Part shown: positions 11,901 through 26,826 of the stretch, piece after piece | How positions within the stretch are numbered: position 1 is the first letter of the stretch | How the letters are laid out: each line of letters opens with the position of its first letter | Virus record (IMG/VR): IMGVR_UViG_3300028417_000008 | Location: 1 to 40,264 of that record | Length of the DNA stretch: 40,264 nt | Origin: a virus | Reading direction: 5' to 3' (one strand) | Made by a program: the position numbers and the translations under genes | Notes under the pieces: generated by a model | What the model was told of the DNA's origin: nothing | Databases searched by the model: none | The model's input: the letters and a program-made list of their open reading frames with translations, nothing else

Positions 11901-11906
11901 AAATGA

Positions 11907-11979
11907 CAAGGCGGGCAGGATTCGAACCTGCATCTCTCGGATTTGGAATCCGAGGCTCTACCAATTGAGCTACCGCCTT
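11907..11979 (-). tRNA. tRNA-Trp (CCA anticodon)
   Basis: Read on the minus strand, the sequence folds as a full cloverleaf. It has a 7-bp acceptor (AAGGCGG with CCGCCTT), a D arm with GCTC/GAGC, an anticodon stem TCGGA/TCCGA with loop TTCCAAA (anticodon CCA), and a T arm with GGTTCGAATCC. The discriminator is G and no CCA tail is encoded. There is no intron. A promoter with perfect TATAAT lies about 90 bases upstream on the same strand. Confidence 0.96.
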
Positions 11980-12027
11980 AAACCCCCTCCTGTGTTTGTG
12001 AGTGGAGAGGCTGTTCTGGGTTGTAAT

Positions 12028-19537: not shown

Positions 19538-20068
19538 TTACAATACTTGGCAATTCACCACCCTTGCTCGTCTTATTGCGTTGTAACTTTTTCTAAGAAA
19601 GTAAAGCACAAAGTACTTTGCCATTACTCTATCTACAGCAAAAAAGAAGTTCCAGCCTCTTGCCATAAAAGAAATAATGGAGTTAAGCACGACCCTAAAT
19701 TTTACATCGTTAATGGAATCAATAAGCAAGTCGTTAAAAGAAATACCTTCAATAAGGATAGCCTTACAAATGTAGTTTTTCCCTCTTAACAGCTCTTTTT
19801 CAAAGCGTTCTCTGTGGTTAGTAAGGCAGTTTTCAAAGTCGTTTTGTTTCTTGCGTTCTACTGTTATCAGGTTCTCAAGTCCTGCTATGGAGTAGTCACC
19901 TACATCAAGTTTTTTCCTAACGATGGATAAGTTCTTGGTAGTAGCAAACAACGGGTCGCTTTCTCTAGTGTCCACTATAAGTGTGAGTTTCTTTTCTTGC
20001 CACTTTTGAACTTCTGCTTTTAACAACGGCTCTATTTCGTTGCGTAGGCTTAAGTGCTCAATTATCAT
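19538..20068 (-). CDS. ERCC4/XPF-family nuclease (176 aa)
   Basis: The protein carries the XPF nuclease core: VDTRES (D33, R35, E36), DVGDYSI (G57, D58) and VERKK (E71, R72, K73), i.e. the GDX(n)ERKX(3)D type. Downstream NDFENCL and RERFEKEL match the family. It is a single-domain form without the helix-hairpin-helix pair of cellular XPF. It likely cuts branched or flap DNA during recombination-dependent replication. The C-terminal residues (RRARVVNCQVL) run into the odd spacer and may be extended by it. Confidence 0.92.
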   Translation of the reverse strand: MIIEHLSLRNEIEPLLKAEVQKWQEKKLTLIVDTRESDPLFATTKNLSIVRKKLDVGDYSIAGLENLITVERKKQNDFENCLTNHRERFEKELLRGKNYICKAILIEGISFNDLLIDSINDVKFRVVLNSIISFMARGWNFFFAVDRVMAKYFVLYFLRKSYNAIRRARVVNCQVL

Positions 20069-20528: not shown

Positions 20529-21020
20529 TTAATCGTTAAAGATGTCGTCGGCTAACTCGTCGTCATTAACTTCTGGCAATGCGTCTTCTTTCTTAGCAAA
20601 GTCAACTTGGGTTACATTTTGATAAGTCTTTCCGTCTTTTCCTTCAGAGCTTTCAAGAAGCACTCTAATAGGACGCCCAGGAAGATACTTCTCGAGTTTT
20701 GGATAAAGTTTTTCCCATCTACCGTTAGCAAGGTACTTTTCAGTAAATTCTGAGACAGTCATTTCTTTCTGAATTCCCATTTGCTTGTCTGTTCCAGTAA
20801 TGCCAATAATAGTAGCTAATGCCCTCAAACCACCGTTTGTTTCAGGATTAATAAACATAGAACGCTCATAAACGAAAGCGTCTGCAATGATGCTGAAAAC
20901 TACACGAATGCGTCTGCCGTACTCGTTTTCAAGAAGCTCCAAGCGTTCAATCTTGGCATCGTGCCATCCGTCTTCAAGTCTGCGTCCTCCGAGTACCTTG
21001 TCCTTGTCGTCAATAATCAT
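20529..21020 (-). CDS. ssDNA-binding protein, DUF669-like (163 aa)
   Basis: The beta-rich body (WHDAKIERLELLENEYGRR and RIRVVFSI) fits the OB-fold-like DUF669 phage proteins, and the C-terminus is a very acidic tail (EVNDDELADDIFND) as in single-stranded DNA-binding proteins, where it recruits partners. The DUF669 group often occurs near a Sak4-like ATPase, as here (22859-23605). It likely coats ssDNA for replication and annealing. AAGGAGGTGTGTT precedes ATG 21020. Confidence 0.75.
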   Translation of the reverse strand: MIIDDKDKVLGGRRLEDGWHDAKIERLELLENEYGRRIRVVFSIIADAFVYERSMFINPETNGGLRALATIIGITGTDKQMGIQKEMTVSEFTEKYLANGRWEKLYPKLEKYLPGRPIRVLLESSEGKDGKTYQNVTQVDFAKKEDALPEVNDDELADDIFND

Positions 21021-21144: not shown

Positions 21145-21510
21145 CTATGTTCTCTTGTAAAGCTCTTTTACTGTTAGCTTGTAGAAAACAATGTCGCCTC
21201 TTTCGTGCATTCTTATAAGCTCGTCAAAGGTGTAAACTTTGTTTTTTGGTAGTTCAAGGTTAATTTCGATTATCAAAACTTCGTCACTATCCTCGACTTT
21301 TACAGTTTCCTTGTTGACTTCAACGGGCAATTTAGTTAAAGCTGCCACTATTTTTGCAGTAGCCTTGTTATCAATTGCAGACTTGAAGTCAATCTTGCCA
21401 AACCACTTGTGCAATGTGTCGTCAAACTCGTCAAAACCGATTTTGAACAGCTTAATCTTGCACGGGCACATAAACATACTTGGGCTTAGTGAGTTAAGTA
21501 AGTATTTCAT
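21145..21510 (-). CDS. DUF1874 / AcrIII-1-like protein A, altered active site (121 aa)
   Basis: The pattern of the DUF1874 family (viral ring nucleases that destroy cyclic tetra-adenylate, blocking type III CRISPR) can be followed along the chain: YLLNSLSPSM at the start, FKSAIDNKAT at 42-51, a helix AKIVAALTKLPVEVNK, then DEVLIIEINLELP and LIRMHERGDIVFYKL at the end. The family's IGH core with the catalytic His (His47 in the SIRV1 protein) reads I46-D47-N48 here, and the Glu equivalent (E88) appears as K89. It may therefore bind rather than cut the ligand. A paralog-like protein is at 25098-25472. AAAGGAGG precedes ATG 21510. The family call rests on my reading of motifs. Confidence 0.72.
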   Translation of the reverse strand: MKYLLNSLSPSMFMCPCKIKLFKIGFDEFDDTLHKWFGKIDFKSAIDNKATAKIVAALTKLPVEVNKETVKVEDSDEVLIIEINLELPKNKVYTFDELIRMHERGDIVFYKLTVKELYKRT

Positions 21511-21511
21511 T

Positions 21512-21703
21512 TTAAGCCTCCTTTGATTTATATTTTTTAGTTATAGAAACTAATACACATTGTTTACGCTTTTCGTCATACCAAGCACATGCATATTCCA
21601 TACACCAAGGTTCACATTTAAATCCTTCAAAATCTTTATGTTTCCAATATGCTTCTGCAGCAATTTCCCAAGCCATCAGTCGTAAAGGACACCATTTTTT
21701 CAT
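21512..21703 (-). CDS. Small Cys-rich protein (63 aa)
   Basis: Cysteines at 5, 30, 34, 39 and 49, with the C34-x4-C39-x9-C49 core and AWYDEK, match the 58-aa protein at 12312-12488. CP near the N-terminus is also shared. This type of small phage Cys protein probably binds zinc or a Fe-S cluster. The start ATG 21703 (GAGGTGCGTA upstream) lies inside the end of the previous gene, a 68-base overlap. Confidence 0.75.
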   Translation of the reverse strand: MKKWCPLRLMAWEIAAEAYWKHKDFEGFKCEPWCMEYACAWYDEKRKQCVLVSITKKYKSKEA

Positions 21704-22157
21704 TACGCACCTCTTTTTTTTGTTCTTTCCAGAATTTTATAACTATGGAACATATTAGTCCAATTAGAAATTCTTCAAACTTTAAAGGAGACATTAGTCC
21801 TTTCCTTTTTGATAATATTTTTGATTCAAATTCAAAATTTTCTAAAGGGACTTCAAGCCCTAAAATTTCTTCAAATGAAAGCTCGTGTAATTCCTTATTT
21901 TCACTTTTAGAATCATTAGGATCATAAGCAAAAATGTATCCAGGATAAAGCCAAAGAATTTTGTATTTTCTTTTAGGTTCGATTTTGCTATTGAATAAAA
22001 AATTAATGACTTTTTCTCTATCCCATTGTGGAATAGGGTGCAAACATCTTGTTTCTGGGCCATTTAAATTTTCAGTTTTAATTAACCATTCTATTATGTT
22101 ATCAACATAATTTTTGTTATCTTTTTTTATTTTTTCTAAAAATTCTTTCAGAATCAC
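21636..22157 (-). CDS. Hypothetical protein (173 aa)
   Basis: The start chosen is GTG 22157, 4-5 bases after AGGAGGGTAAAA; eight more in-frame residues exist upstream but have no ribosome site. The protein is charged and helical, with one hydrophobic stretch (LIGLICSIVIKFW, about residue 133) near the C-terminus. The last residues overlap the next gene in another frame. No family recognised. It may associate with the membrane. Confidence 0.62.
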   Translation of the reverse strand: MILKEFLEKIKKDNKNYVDNIIEWLIKTENLNGPETRCLHPIPQWDREKVINFLFNSKIEPKRKYKILWLYPGYIFAYDPNDSKSENKELHELSFEEILGLEVPLENFEFESKILSKRKGLMSPLKFEEFLIGLICSIVIKFWKEQKKEVRNEKMVSFTTDGLGNCCRSILET

Positions 22158-22159
22158 TT

Positions 22160-22420
22160 TTACCCTCCTTTTTCTTCCCACATTTTTACTAACTTAAAGA
22201 ACCCGTAAGCCTTCTTAATAGCAGTTTCTTTATCCATTCCAAGACACATTCCGTAGTAAACAAGGCACTCAAAAAGAAGTTGAAGAAATATCGTTATGTC
22301 AAAGTGTTTCCCTAAGCCTTCTTCGTAAAAGGCTAAACTAAGTATAACTGCTTCTTTAATGTCGTAATCAGGTTTTTTGATGTCTTTAATCATCTGTCTT
22401 GCTACATCCAGAAGCGTCAT
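22160..22420 (-). CDS. Hypothetical helical protein (86 aa)
   Basis: The start overlaps the previous gene by 35 bases (ATG 22420, AGAGAGG upstream). The protein is all-helical with a hydrophobic core (TIFLQLLFECLVYYGMCLGM) and a charged end. It is not a clear membrane protein, since the hydrophobic helix contains Glu and is amphipathic. Function unknown. Confidence 0.62.
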   Translation of the reverse strand: MTLLDVARQMIKDIKKPDYDIKEAVILSLAFYEEGLGKHFDITIFLQLLFECLVYYGMCLGMDKETAIKKAYGFFKLVKMWEEKGG

Positions 22421-22859
22421 CGTTTTCCTCTCTTATTTGCTGTGCTTTTTTAATTTCTTTTAAGAAAGGATTAACTTTTTCGTTCATTTCTTCTTGCGTT
22501 TCTGTTAAAAATTTGCAAAAATCACAGATAAGTAATCCAATTTTCCCTAACCAATCAGTACCTTTATCACTATAATGTTGCAAGGCTTCAATCATATACT
22601 TTTTAGGATTTTTGTTTAATTTTTGAACGATATAGTAAAAATTTTCAATAAAGTGGAAAAACCATCCATTATGACACATAATTCCCATCTGGTACGCTTG
22701 CATAAAGTTTTCTAACAAAGCAAAAGTAAACTTAAAATCTTCGTCTTTGCAATACTTTTCAATAATGTCTGTAGCTCTTAAATTAAAATAGCCCAATAGA
22801 TTTAATAAAGCCCTGCAATAATCGTCAAAAGTTTCTTGGTGATAGTAAAGTGGATTCAT
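22386..22859 (-). CDS. Hypothetical helical protein (157 aa)
   Basis: GGGAGGTAAGTA precedes ATG 22859, which shares a base with the stop of the Sak4-like gene (TAATG), so the two are coupled. The protein is helical and rich in Tyr, Phe and Cys, with an acidic tail (REENDDASGCSKTDD) that is typical of proteins binding basic partners. No recognised domain. It may be an accessory of the recombinase. Confidence 0.62.
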   Translation of the reverse strand: MNPLYYHQETFDDYCRALLNLLGYFNLRATDIIEKYCKDEDFKFTFALLENFMQAYQMGIMCHNGWFFHFIENFYYIVQKLNKNPKKYMIEALQHYSDKGTDWLGKIGLLICDFCKFLTETQEEMNEKVNPFLKEIKKAQQIREENDDASGCSKTDD

Positions 22860-23605
22860 TACTTACCTCCCTTTATGATTTTTATTATTTTGCTCAAATC
22901 ATAAGGAAAAGCTTTTTTATCCAAGTTAGGACCCGTCCATTTGGCAACAAAAGTGCCGTCAGACTCAAAGTAAACTGCAGGTGGATAAATGACCTTGCCA
23001 TCCTTAACACGAGGTCTAACCAAACCAATGCAATCAAACCAAGCAGGATAGCTCTTGTTAAACTTCTCGCCGATAAAGTTAGGAGCACAAGCAAGCTCTA
23101 CATTCCACTTAGGATTGTCAGTAGCAAGAGCAATTCCTACGACATATTTGCCTTGCTTGACATAATTGCCCATAAAGGTGGTAATACGATTCATCCAAGA
23201 ACCGATAGCACCGTAACCGGACAGGTCGGTTCTAACTAGGTTGACGAGTTTTCTCTTAGAAGTGTCAAACACTTTTGCTTCAGCAGTTTCTTTTTCAATT
23301 TCAGTTAAAAGCATAACATTGCACAGGTAGGTCATGCTGTCAATAACGATAGTCTGGTAATCTTTAAAGGTGCTGTAGTCTTCCATTGCACGGATAAAGT
23401 CCCAGAAGTCTTCAGGCTCAAAGATGTCAATGTTTCTGTCTTTAAGAATGCCAGCTACGAAAGAAAGGTCTCTTGGCTCAAGCATCACATAAGCTACTGG
23501 TTCCGGTGCAGTTAGCAAGGTAGTCGTGGTTTTCCCGACTCCCGTGTCTCCGTAGATTAGAAAACTTATCCCTCTGTTAACTGAAGTGATTTTACTTTTT
23601 TTCAT
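22859..23605 (-). CDS. Sak4-like RecA-fold ATPase (AAA_24; 248 aa)
   Basis: Walker A is GDTGVGKT (19-26) and Walker B is TIVIDSMT (about 83-90). A conserved YVMLEPRD strand follows the P-loop, and the C-terminal half is beta-rich. The size and order fit the phage Sak4 / AAA_24 group, single-strand annealing or Rad51-like recombinases, which often come with a DUF669-like ssDNA-binding protein as in this operon. AAGGAGGTAGCG precedes ATG 23605. Confidence 0.87.
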   Translation of the reverse strand: MKKSKITSVNRGISFLIYGDTGVGKTTTTLLTAPEPVAYVMLEPRDLSFVAGILKDRNIDIFEPEDFWDFIRAMEDYSTFKDYQTIVIDSMTYLCNVMLLTEIEKETAEAKVFDTSKRKLVNLVRTDLSGYGAIGSWMNRITTFMGNYVKQGKYVVGIALATDNPKWNVELACAPNFIGEKFNKSYPAWFDCIGLVRPRVKDGKVIYPPAVYFESDGTFVAKWTGPNLDKKAFPYDLSKIIKIIKGGK

Positions 23606-23722
23606 CGCTACCTCCTTTTAAAATTTTTCTACACCCTAACAAGCAGTGCGATGCCTTTGCTCTGCTTAACCATCCTTACTTAACCTTTGCTTTACAGCAT
23701 CCTACCTGTCGGCACAGTACCG
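23606..23722. other. Non-coding spacer similar in wording to 19213-19537
   Basis: A 117-bp gap in the operon. Its minus strand reads as purine-rich words (GCAAAGG, GGTTAAG, GTAAGGATGG) like the longer spacer. I see no gene or promoter in it except the ribosome site for the Sak4-like gene. Confidence 0.5.
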
Positions 23723-24448
23723 TTACTTTTTTCTCACCTTTAACTTTACCTTCCCATTGCTTTTAATCGTTACCCCACCATCTATCAATTCCCACTTAAA
23801 CCTTCCAAAACCACCGTTCCTAAACTGAGAGATGCCAAGCAAGAAACCATAATCAAGCATTGACTTAATTTTCTCAAAGGTAAGCTCCTTATTTTCAATA
23901 AGCACAAGCTTGATTTCGTTAGTCGTTACTGGGTTTTCTTCGCTTGCCTTGATACGCTCTGAAGCTACGAGAGTAACACGCTCACCCTGACGGGTCATAC
24001 CTCTTAAAGGGCGAACATAGATGTCGTCTGGTTCTTTAATTAGCTCGCCGTTGCGATAAAAGTGGATGTGGTTAGGAAAAACGAACAGGAAACAGTCAAT
24101 CTTTTTCTTGTAAGCTTTAAGCGAAAGCTGGTCTTTAAGAGCCTGAGCAGCACTCTTGAAAAAGCCCTTAACCATAAAATTAGGAATGTAAATAATTCCG
24201 TTCTTGTCTCTTCTAAAGTAGGTCATTCCAGAGATTTCTTCGTTTTCTGGTGTATCGTAATCTTCTTCGGTGTAAGATTCTTTAGCAAGTTCTTTGGCTT
24301 CCTCTAGTATGTTTTCGATTTGCTCTTTTACTTCCTCTTGTTTCTTCTGAAAAAACTCTTTTTGTAAAAGCTCTTGGCTTGGTGCTGTTCCAAGTATGTC
24401 GCTAATAAAGGTAAGTTTAATCGTGTGCTCTAAGGTTTTGAAGTTCAT
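23723..24448 (-). CDS. Phage protein of the 'LGTAP' family, RAMP-like end (241 aa)
   Basis: The chain shows the signature of a phage family common in Clostridia and relatives: ISDILGTAP near the N-terminus, MTYFRRDKNG, PNFMVKGFFKSA, RPLRGMTRQGERV and, at the end, LLGISQFRNGGFGRF. The family has no proven role. Its final glycine-rich loop and the overall beta pattern look like the G-loop of RAMP/Cas7-like proteins, which is only my suggestion. It may bind nucleic acid. AAGGAGGGGAGGTT precedes ATG 24448. Confidence 0.8.
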   Translation of the reverse strand: MNFKTLEHTIKLTFISDILGTAPSQELLQKEFFQKKQEEVKEQIENILEEAKELAKESYTEEDYDTPENEEISGMTYFRRDKNGIIYIPNFMVKGFFKSAAQALKDQLSLKAYKKKIDCFLFVFPNHIHFYRNGELIKEPDDIYVRPLRGMTRQGERVTLVASERIKASEENPVTTNEIKLVLIENKELTFEKIKSMLDYGFLLGISQFRNGGFGRFKWELIDGGVTIKSNGKVKLKVRKK

Positions 24449-24461
24449 AACCTCCCCTCCT

Positions 24462-24716
24462 TTAGATATGGAATTTTATGTGCAAGCTGTTCGTTTCTTC
24501 GTTCACCCAGAGTTCTATTTTTTGCACTACTAAAGTTCCGTCAATAACGCCACCTATCCACATTCCATCCTTGTAAATTCCCGTGTATGCTTTTATGCCT
24601 CTAAAGATTTTCATAGGTAATCTCAAGTCGAGCTTTTCTAAAAATACCTCTAAGGTTTTTAAGTCTTGCTTTATGTTAAGTAGCATCTCCTCGTTAATTT
24701 CCCATAGCTTTTTCAT
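24462..24716 (-). CDS. Hypothetical protein (84 aa)
   Basis: Two helices (about 8-30) are followed by a beta-rich half (YTGIYKDGMWIGGVIDGTL). AAAAGGAGGTGAGAC lies before ATG 24716, inside the preceding gene (23-base overlap). No family recognised. Confidence 0.62.
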   Translation of the reverse strand: MKKLWEINEEMLLNIKQDLKTLEVFLEKLDLRLPMKIFRGIKAYTGIYKDGMWIGGVIDGTLVVQKIELWVNEETNSLHIKFHI

Positions 24717-24900
24717 TTTGTCTCACCTCCTTTTCAATCTTTGGTATGAGGTGCCTTAATCTCCAGACGAATCTTTTAGCCAGCTCTTCTTCGTAAAAAA
24801 TCTCAGACACCTCAAAAGCGTCAATTGTAGGAGCAAGAAGGTCGTCTTTGATTTTTATAAGATACTTTCCATTGCTCGCTTTAACGACTTCTGCTATCAT
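24694..24900 (-). CDS. Hypothetical protein (68 aa)
   Basis: It starts at ATG 24900, sharing a base with the previous stop. A beta N-terminus (EVVKASNGKYLIKI) leads to two charged helices. The end overlaps the next gene by 23 bases. Function unknown. Confidence 0.6.
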   Translation of the reverse strand: MIAEVVKASNGKYLIKIKDDLLAPTIDAFEVSEIFYEEELAKRFVWRLRHLIPKIEKEVRQNEKAMGN

Positions 24901-25082
24901 TATTCTCCCTCCTTGTAGTTATCTCCGTAATAATTAGCTACCATATAATCTTCATAAGTAACACCATCAACCCAACCTTCACCGTTGCAGAGGTAACACT
25001 CTGGGTCGTCTCCGTCACACTCAGGACAGCGGTGTAAAAGTATATCCTCTTCACTTCTTATTAATTCCTTTGCAAAAAACAT
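24900..25082 (-). CDS. Small DnaJ-type zinc-finger protein (60 aa)
   Basis: C19, C22, C29 and C32 occur as CPECDGDD and CYLCNGEGW, the CxxCxG pattern of half a DnaJ zinc finger. The tail is acidic and Tyr-rich. AAAGGAGGTGGTACC precedes ATG 25082. Probably a zinc-bound adaptor; the partner is unknown. Confidence 0.72.
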   Translation of the reverse strand: MFFAKELIRSEEDILLHRCPECDGDDPECYLCNGEGWVDGVTYEDYMVANYYGDNYKEGE

Positions 25083-25097
25083 GGTACCACCTCCTTT

Positions 25098-25472
25098 TTA
25101 TAAGGTTGTATAACTATCCAAAATTTTTGCATAGAAAAGTTTCAAGATGCCATCTCTGTGAAGTGCGTAGTACTGAATGTCGTTTAACTCGTTTAGCTCT
25201 GGATAGTCAGGGACTTTTACGATTAAAAACTCGTCTCCCTTATTAGGAATTATTGTAGGTTCGTAATTATGCTCGCAAAGATTAACGGTTGTCAAAGCAA
25301 AAACAACCCTTTTAATAAGGGAAGAATGAATGCAGTGCTTAAAGTCGGATAAATATTCCCACTCACGGAGTCTTTTACTAAACTGAGGGATGATAAGAGA
25401 AACGATGTTACACTTATAATGACAATCCTCTAGGAACTCAAAAAACTTGCTGTCTTCTATGAGATACTTCAT
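25098..25472 (-). CDS. DUF1874 / AcrIII-1-like protein B (124 aa)
   Basis: It resembles protein A (21145-21510) along its length: both begin MKYL, share DFK-x-x-I at mid-chain, a VxxALT helix, DE-x-LI(I/V) and a final hydrophobic strand ending FY-x-K. At the position of the family's IGH core it reads I48-H49-S50, so a histidine is next to, but not at, the catalytic place. It is the first gene after an internal promoter (25500-25528), unlike protein A. Similarity to the known family is weaker than for A. Expected role: binding or breaking cyclic oligoadenylate of type III CRISPR. GAGGAGGGGAGGCAAAG precedes ATG 25472. Confidence 0.55.
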   Translation of the reverse strand: MKYLIEDSKFFEFLEDCHYKCNIVSLIIPQFSKRLREWEYLSDFKHCIHSSLIKRVVFALTTVNLCEHNYEPTIIPNKGDEFLIVKVPDYPELNELNDIQYYALHRDGILKLFYAKILDSYTTL

Positions 25473-25499: not shown

Positions 25500-25528
25500 A
25501 ATATACCATAACTTTTCTTATTTGTCAA
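25500..25528 (-). promoter_or_regulatory. Internal leftward promoter
   Basis: On the minus strand there is a perfect TTGACA (25528-25523), a 17-bp spacer and TATATT (25505-25500), with TG one base upstream (extended -10, TGGTATATT). The -35 box lies in the last codons of the Cas4-like gene. It would drive the DUF1874-like B gene first, then the genes beyond. Confidence 0.8.
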
Positions 25529-26294
25529 GTAAAATTTTAGCAAATTTTTCAAAATTTTCTTGTCTTTTTTTAAAGTGGGGATGTTCTATTTCAAAGATGT
25601 CTTCTATGGTCTGGACGGCTTGGCAGATGGGTTCGTAAAGGCAGGAACTGAAGGCACAAGCGTAAGACTTCTCAAAAAAACGGTACTTAAGACGGAGTAA
25701 GATGGTTTTATAAAGGACGGTTAGTTTTTGCTCAAGGGCTTCCTTATTAAACTCGTCACGGTGAAATCTAAAGCCCCAGAGTTCAGAGTTTTTGCGTAAG
25801 TAGGGCAAGAATTCACCAGGACGACGCTGTATTCGGTCTAAGAGTTTTTCGAAGTCTTCTTCGTTTTTGGGCTTTTTTCGGTAAACAGGCAAGAGGTAAA
25901 ACCATTCAATATTGGGAAAAAGCAAGGAGTAAAACTCAAGTTGCTCTTTAGCCCAGGATTCCATGTAGATAGAGCCTAAAGACTTGGTAGTAAACTTAAT
26001 TTCTCCTATCCAGCCGTCGCCGAGAATGTCGGCTTTTCCGATTAGAGTAAACCCCTCAAATTCTTTAGTAGCTTCTTGCTCGTATTTAACATTATCAGGC
26101 AAGACGGATTTAATAAGGTCTCGGTAGGCAATAATAAGACGGTTTTCGATGTAAGAGCCTTCGAGGGAACGCATAAGATCAACTCCAAATTGCATTGGAT
26201 CGGGTAAGATTTGAGGCTCAAACAAGCGTGACAAGAGAAATTTCATAGGACACTTATAAAAATCTCTTATTGCTGAATAGCTTAATTGCAACAT
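25518..26294 (-). CDS. Cas4/RecB-like Fe-S exonuclease (258 aa)
   Basis: The PD-(D/E)xK nuclease is complete: GKAD with D89, E98-x-K100 and Q118-xxx-Y122 (the QxxxY motif of RecB/Cas4). C15 together with C213, C218 and C224 has the layout of the 4Fe-4S cluster of Cas4/AddB. It likely processes DNA ends in recombination; it is unlikely to be a CRISPR adaptation protein because no cas1 or array is near. AAAGGAGG precedes ATG 26294. Confidence 0.88.
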   Translation of the reverse strand: MLQLSYSAIRDFYKCPMKFLLSRLFEPQILPDPMQFGVDLMRSLEGSYIENRLIIAYRDLIKSVLPDNVKYEQEATKEFEGFTLIGKADILGDGWIGEIKFTTKSLGSIYMESWAKEQLEFYSLLFPNIEWFYLLPVYRKKPKNEEDFEKLLDRIQRRPGEFLPYLRKNSELWGFRFHRDEFNKEALEQKLTVLYKTILLRLKYRFFEKSYACAFSSCLYEPICQAVQTIEDIFEIEHPHFKKRQENFEKFAKILLDK

Positions 26295-26305: not shown

Positions 26306-26599
26306 TTATTCTGATGGTATTATTGCAGTAAAAATGTAGTATTTTTGTTCGTTAATAATAAGGATTTTTGTATGTACAGGTTGAAAAATTAAATAAGCTT
26401 CAAGTTTTTTGCTTTGTTTTACTTCTTTTTTGAGTTCTTCTAAATTAACAGATTCAAAAGTTTTAAAATTTCTTATGTTTTTATCAATAGACAAATTTAA
26501 AATTTTCATTACAGCTCTTTTATTAAGTTTATAAAAGCCTTCGTCAATTTTGGTTGCTGTAGTATGTGAGGCTTCTACATACAAATCAACTTTTTTCAT
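26306..26599 (-). CDS. Hypothetical protein (97 aa)
   Basis: Basic and beta/alpha mixed (VDLYVEASHTTATK at the start, EAYLIFQPVHTKILI later). It overlaps the ferredoxin gene by 4 bases (ATGA) and is coupled to it. No family recognised. Coupling to the ferredoxin suggests a related task. Confidence 0.65.
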   Translation of the reverse strand: MKKVDLYVEASHTTATKIDEGFYKLNKRAVMKILNLSIDKNIRNFKTFESVNLEELKKEVKQSKKLEAYLIFQPVHTKILIINEQKYYIFTAIIPSE

Positions 26600-26826
26600 T
26601 TTTTTACCTCCTTAAATGTGATTGCTTTATTGCTACATACCTTTAGACAATTAAGACACTTGACGCACTTATGTTTGAACCATCGAGGTGGATCGTGAAG
26701 GTTTGAAATGTGAAGAGCGTCGTGGGGACAGGAGTCAACGCAGGAAAAACAGCGTATGCATAACGAGTCTTCAATCGTGCGTGTAAAACCCTGAAACTTG
26801 TAGTCTTCTTCAGACCAGAAACACAT
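26596..26826 (-). CDS. 2x[4Fe-4S] ferredoxin (76 aa)
   Basis: Two complete cluster motifs occur: C23-I-R-C-F-S-C-V-D-S-C33-P and C54-V-K-C-L-N-C-L-K-V-C64. This is the classic bacterial 8Fe-8S ferredoxin layout in 76 residues. It would carry electrons in the cytoplasm. Phage ferredoxins of this kind are unusual. It lies two genes upstream of the Cas4-like Fe-S nuclease. AAAGGAGGTGTCGTT precedes ATG 26826. Confidence 0.9.
   Translation of the reverse strand: MCFWSEEDYKFQGFTRTIEDSLCIRCFSCVDSCPHDALHISNLHDPPRWFKHKCVKCLNCLKVCSNKAITFKEVKK

Follow-up and report, generated by a model that had tools for sequence, protein, structure and literature searches.

Two diverged DUF1874 (AcrIII-1-like) paralogs with exchanged active-site residues in a phage related to Hydrogenobaculum phage 1: candidate non-catalytic nucleotide binders

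The virus record IMGVR_UViG_3300028417_000008, a stretch of 40,264 bases that we analysed whole (the window), encodes two small proteins of DUF1874 type in which the residues of the AcrIII-1 active site have been exchanged. Protein A, of 121 amino acids (21145..21510, minus strand), belongs by its sequence matches to the DUF1874/PF08960 (AcrIII-1/Crn2) family, and protein B, of 124 amino acids (25098..25472, minus strand), is a diverged paralog of A with a predicted AcrIII-1 fold. AcrIII-1, a dimer, is the textbook example of a viral ring nuclease. The DUF1874 family is known; A and B constitute a variant of it with an exchanged catalytic set and without close relative in the collections searched. 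Canonical cutting of cA4 by A and B appears unlikely, because both lack the catalytic His47 and A lacks all other markers of the site. The reading that we tentatively favour is that A and B are small dimeric, non-catalytic binders of a nucleotide ligand that have kept the DUF1874 fold, in other words pseudo-ring-nucleases.

A first-pass annotation had proposed two DUF1874-like frames at these coordinates, and both open reading frames are present there, on the minus strand; the plus strand is interrupted by stops at the same positions. For A, profile searches support the proposed family membership: PF08960 matches it with 47.3 bits (E 2.3e-12), exceeding the curated cut-off of 26 bits, phrog_5063 matches it with E 1.6e-15, and phmmer aligns it with SIRV1 AcrIII-1 (2x4i, E 4.5e-8) as well as with the solved STIV and AFV3 proteins. 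A is the sole PF08960 match in the whole record. The Csx16 model of PADLOC also recognizes A (E 6.8e-7), but this model cannot separate Csx16 from DUF1874, since it equally matches the canonical DUF1874 domains of Aquificota fusion proteins.

B is linked to the DUF1874 family through its paralogy to A and its predicted fold. The earlier description of B as DUF1874-like stands on these two grounds and not on the family profile: PF08960 gives no match to B at E <= 1, profile searches including Pfam and PHROGs found no direct evidence for it, and its score against a family profile built without A does not stand out from those of its shuffled versions. The paralogy itself is borne out by the alignment of A with B, which share 30% identity over 116 amino acids (BLASTP) and reach a local score of 85, that is, 11 standard deviations above shuffled sequences (mean 28.8, standard deviation 5.0, maximum 64; none of 20,000 shuffles reach 85). 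By this comparison the similarity is not due to chance, and A and B are mutual best matches among the 376 ORFs of the record. AlphaFold2 models B alone poorly, with a pLDDT of 39.8; with a four-row alignment, composed of B plus A, L011 and L013, the pLDDT is 90.4 and the pTM 0.85, the fold being partly owed to the family members that this alignment contains. The resulting model matches the STIV protein 2j85 in Foldseek (6.6e-7), and its VIA Z scores are 15.1 for 2j85, 14.3 for 2x4i, 13.3 for 8y7f, 12.2 for 6scf and 10.7 for 2j6b, all of them solved DUF1874 proteins, while the best unrelated structure reaches only 2.7. Taken together, the model and the A-B score are good evidence for a DUF1874 fold of B. 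Three viral proteins with predicted structures in BFVD, A0A1B2IEC3 (Erwinia phage vB_EamM_Kwan), A0A8E7FZ07 and R4II49, match the same model with a Foldseek probability of 1.0 at 9-12% identity, and are possible further diverged proteins of DUF1874 fold.

In the enzyme to which A and B must be compared, cleavage of cA4 proceeds by in-line attack and His47 serves as the general acid (PMC7371418, PMC12830947, PMC13148439). Among 46 homologs, drawn from phages, viruses of archaea, stand-alone genes of bacteria and archaea, and fusion proteins of Aquificota, the His47 column of SIRV1 AcrIII-1 holds His in 43, Tyr in two and a gap in one; Arg66 is present in 45, Arg85 in all 46 and Glu88 in 45. In A all four positions are changed, to Asn48, Lys67, Glu86 and Lys89 respectively, two of them with reversal of charge; Asp47 replaces Gly46, and Asn90 replaces Gly89. 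The register is firm because the aligned blocks are free of gaps: SAIDNKAT lies on NSIGHDST, the codons of Asp47-Asn48 (vs Gly46-His47) being at 21367..21372 on the minus strand, and ELPKNK lies on RLEEGK, with the codons of Glu86-Leu-Pro-Lys89-Asn90 (vs Arg85-Leu-x-Glu88-Gly89) at 21241..21255, also on the minus strand. With B aligned on A, the positions of His47, Arg66 and Arg85 are occupied in B by Ser50 (directly preceded by His49), Tyr70 and Asp89, and that of Glu88 retains its Glu, as Glu92. The first-pass annotation had already noted Asn48 and Lys89 in A and Ser50 beside His49 in B, all of which the alignments reproduce; the changes of Arg66, Arg85 and Gly89 in A, and of Arg66 and Arg85 in B, come in addition.

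B was placed by pairwise and 4-5-sequence alignments, in which its DFK motif sits on the DFK of A. Alignments of 7 or 16 sequences were set aside, as they displaced B by ~10 residues with respect to A, and the appearance of B His46 in the His47 column of a 48-sequence alignment was judged to be a misalignment. The pattern of conservation in A is the opposite of that expected from ordinary drift: only one of the six columns conserved at >=96% is retained (Asn8), as against identity at 11 of the 20 columns conserved at 60-89%, which points to a fold that was retained while the active site was exchanged. Among the homologs, two solo DUF1874 genes (L015:3998-4315 and L030:1429-1776) have Tyr for the catalytic His, and the second has also Asn for Glu88.

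In the phylogenetic tree A and B group together, outside the other 39 rows, with support of 92/87, B lying on a very long branch of unsure placement. Neither is near the DUF1874 type of Hydrogenobaculum phage 1 and, for this reason, they are probably not simple orthologs of that protein. We found no close relatives of A or B in viral_contigs, none of B in the phages searched and none of A in the plasmids searched; in Aquificota, B met only weak matches that lie within long frames and are probably due to chance. In the literature searched, we found no account of DUF1874 paralogs whose catalytic residues had all been replaced. The homologs from Aquificota include six proteins of about 560-613 amino acids (L018, L020, L023, L024, L025, L028) with a CRISPR-Lon/SAVED-Lon match at residues 10-390 and, C-terminally, a ring-nuclease domain of canonical DUF1874 type. 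These are Lon(-SAVED)-Crn2 fusions, of which we found no description in the literature searched.

The record carries the genes of a tailed phage that is most related to Hydrogenobaculum phage 1, the nearest match of its large terminase (TerL, 37% identity). The TerL is also near IMG/VR contigs that include relatives of the same phage and, because of these affinities, the host is likely to belong to the heat-loving bacteria of the Aquificota. Searching for the host by DNA match of the record returned tRNA-like and short matches only. A tRNA-Trp gene (anticodon CCA; 11905-11980, minus strand), which adjoins the terminase gene, has 75-81% identity to stretches of Aquificota genomes. The SAVED domain (PF18145) occurs in 56 of 136 Aquificota genomes (G006-G141), so that signalling of the cA4 type appears to be common there; many of these matches fall in frames of about 480-500 amino acids, the size of CalpL.

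From ~12 to 27.7 kb of the record the genes are oriented leftward, and A and B lie inside this run, their genes 3.6 kb apart, each preceded by a strong Shine-Dalgarno site (aaaggaggcttaaaATG for A, gaggaggggaggcaaagATG for B). The run, entirely on the minus strand, contains helicases, a MazG-like protein, many small genes and several enzymes of DNA processing: an ERCC4-type nuclease (19538..20068; PF02732, E 3.2e-7), a Sak4-like ssDNA annealing ATPase located between the two paralogs (22859..23605; phrog_124, E 1.2e-18; AAA_24, E 2e-9) and, directly upstream of B, a PD-(D/E)XK/Cas4-like nuclease (25518..26294; phrog_1706, E 1.9e-6; PDDEXK_1, E 6e-4, just under the cut-off). Next downstream of A lies a gene weakly resembling single-strand DNA binding proteins (20529..21020; phrog_378, E 0.034 only), and a small 4Fe-4S ferredoxin-like protein is encoded at 26596-26826, in the replication region of the phage. 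A RAMP-like gene (23723-24448, minus strand), which matches Cas7_IIId weakly (E 0.006) and nothing in Pfam, PHROGs or NCBIfam significantly, encodes a glycine-rich end, GISQFRNGGFGRF; it is found also at L002:3128-3898 and L169-L248, is widespread in phages (248 matches), and possibly represents a Cas7-like fold of phage recombination modules. In Hydrogenobaculum phage 1 a canonical DUF1874 gene is paired with a RAMP-like gene. A pairing of A or B with the RAMP-like gene of the window was nevertheless rejected, given how widespread this gene is and that none of 80 loci surrounding it has a detectable DUF1874 gene.

How might the phage use two such proteins? According to our favoured reading, A and B, paralogs of ancient origin that share the DUF1874 (AcrIII-1/Crn2) fold, would no longer cut cA4 by the His47-dependent in-line mechanism and would, as dimers, sequester a nucleotide ligand without cutting it. 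The ligand would differ from cA4, or cA4 would be held differently, and each copy may have its own ligand, or the two may pair as a heterodimer. A departure from canonical cA4 binding, in the ligand or in the way it is held, seems probable because Arg85, present in all 46 homologs, is replaced by Glu86 in A and by Asp89 in B; otherwise, the site may no longer accept a phosphate ring. This reading draws on the membership of A in PF08960, on the paralogy of B and its model that matches DUF1874 proteins only, and on the loss of the active site while the fold was kept; it draws also on the binding of cA4 by the H47A variant of SIRV1 AcrIII-1, on the precedent of Csx15, in which sponge and enzyme occur inside one ring-nuclease family (PMC13148439), and on the frequency of SAVED in Aquificota. 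It is weakened by the very substitution of Arg85 with Glu or Asp, which should diminish phosphate binding, by the view that sponging is possibly fruitless given the large amount of messenger produced by type III systems (PMC13148439), and by the report that natively expressed AcrIII-1 in SIRV2 is without anti-CRISPR action (PMC11065993); moreover, the host, and type III CRISPR in it, are only what we infer. A bolder proposal, which we consider doubtful, is that a viral ring nuclease was duplicated in the lineage of the phage and that both copies became pseudo-enzymes with a re-charged pocket, capturing a different immune messenger (e.g., cA3, cA5, cA6, SAM-AMP or a CBASS signal) or mimicking the DUF1874 domain found in Lon/SAVED-DUF1874 effectors of the host and pairing with it. 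They would then form a new sponge family built upon the AcrIII-1 fold.

The main rival to the non-catalytic binder is a role in nucleic acid binding, in which A and B would have been repurposed as accessories of replication or recombination, keeping the DUF1874 fold without a signalling ligand. We regard this as possible, if somewhat unlikely. It would suit the company of the Sak4, Cas4-like and ERCC4 proteins, of the helicases and of the SSB-like gene, and recalls the acrIII-1 gene of SIRV, which shares an operon with a Holliday junction resolvase and is expressed at the middle stage (PMC11065993); several family members carry the annotation of DNA binding protein, and A, with a pI of 7.7, is more basic than the SIRV1 or STIV proteins (4.8-4.9). 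However, those annotations go back to old work, gene neighbourhood says little when a phage genome is compact, and the canonical enzymes of related phages are found among such genes, too. The simplest sponge, with cA4 bound as in the H47A variant and left uncut, is improbable in our estimation. Since H47A of SIRV1 AcrIII-1 is inactive and still binds cA4 (KD about 25 nM; PMC7213978), loss of the His alone would make a sponge, and phages commonly deploy sponges against other nucleotide systems (PMC13148439). Against this stand the exchanges of Arg85 (Glu86 and Asp89) and Arg66 (Lys67 and Tyr70) at near-invariant family positions, and the output of type III systems, about 1000 cA4 per target RNA (PMC7213978). 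Binding instead of cutting, as the first-pass annotation had suggested, is compatible with the residues of A and B, but a plain cA4 sponge is less likely than it implied because the charge is reversed at the invariant Arg85.

Residual catalysis would require that an A-B heterodimer, or residues that have moved (His49, His46 and Glu92 of B), form a composite site still cutting cA4 or another cyclic nucleotide. In B, His49 immediately neighbours the catalytic position and Glu92 is retained, AcrIII-1 is dimeric, and in the unrelated viral ring nuclease AcrIII-2 activity returns when two inactive variants are mixed (PMC12751052). Yet neither A nor B supplies Arg85, A lacks both His47 and Glu88, and the genes are separated by 3.6 kb and about 30% identical; a composite site appears a slim prospect, suggested by His49 and Glu92 of B and no further. 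Even less probable is that A and B are decaying remnants without function, as might be surmised from the very long branch of B and from the absence of close relatives in the collections searched, given that both ORFs are intact, tightly packed and preceded by strong Shine-Dalgarno sites, that A retains the pattern of the fold core and that the B model has a pLDDT of 90.

The anti-CRISPR role of AcrIII-1 in native infection is disputed, and natural DUF1874 proteins in which the fold persists but the whole catalytic set has gone would offer a direct probe of what this fold does besides cutting cA4: acting as a sponge, handling another ligand or taking part in replication. A and B also warn against calling DUF1874 proteins ring nucleases on the basis of the domain alone.

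In comparison with known systems, A and B have fold, length and viral setting in common with AcrIII-1 (SIRV1 gp29, 2x4i/6scf; STIV B116, 2j85; THSA-485A), in the case of B by paralogy and model; they differ from it in that A is devoid of His47, Arg66, Arg85 and Glu88, B of three of these four, and in that two paralogs occur in one phage. The AcrIII-1-like protein of Hydrogenobaculum phage 1 (ALG96929) and its IMG/VR relatives (L004-L008, L055) are likewise encoded by a DUF1874 gene in a related phage, but retain the Gly-His, Asn-Arg and Arg-Leu-Pro-Glu-Gly motifs, are single copy and belong to another DUF1874 lineage in the tree. Crn2 and Csx1-Crn2 share the fold of the B model (8y7f) and, unlike A and B, are cellular, linked to CRISPR and endowed with a canonical active site. 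Csx15, a cA4 sponge in one member and a slow ring nuclease in another, is the precedent for the alternative of sponge vs enzyme, even if it has a CARF/SAVED-related fold, is cellular and has not been seen in phages. Finally, the phage sponges Tad1, Tad2, Acb2 and Acb4 resemble A and B in the mode of action that we propose, to sequester rather than to cut, while having unrelated folds and other ligands.
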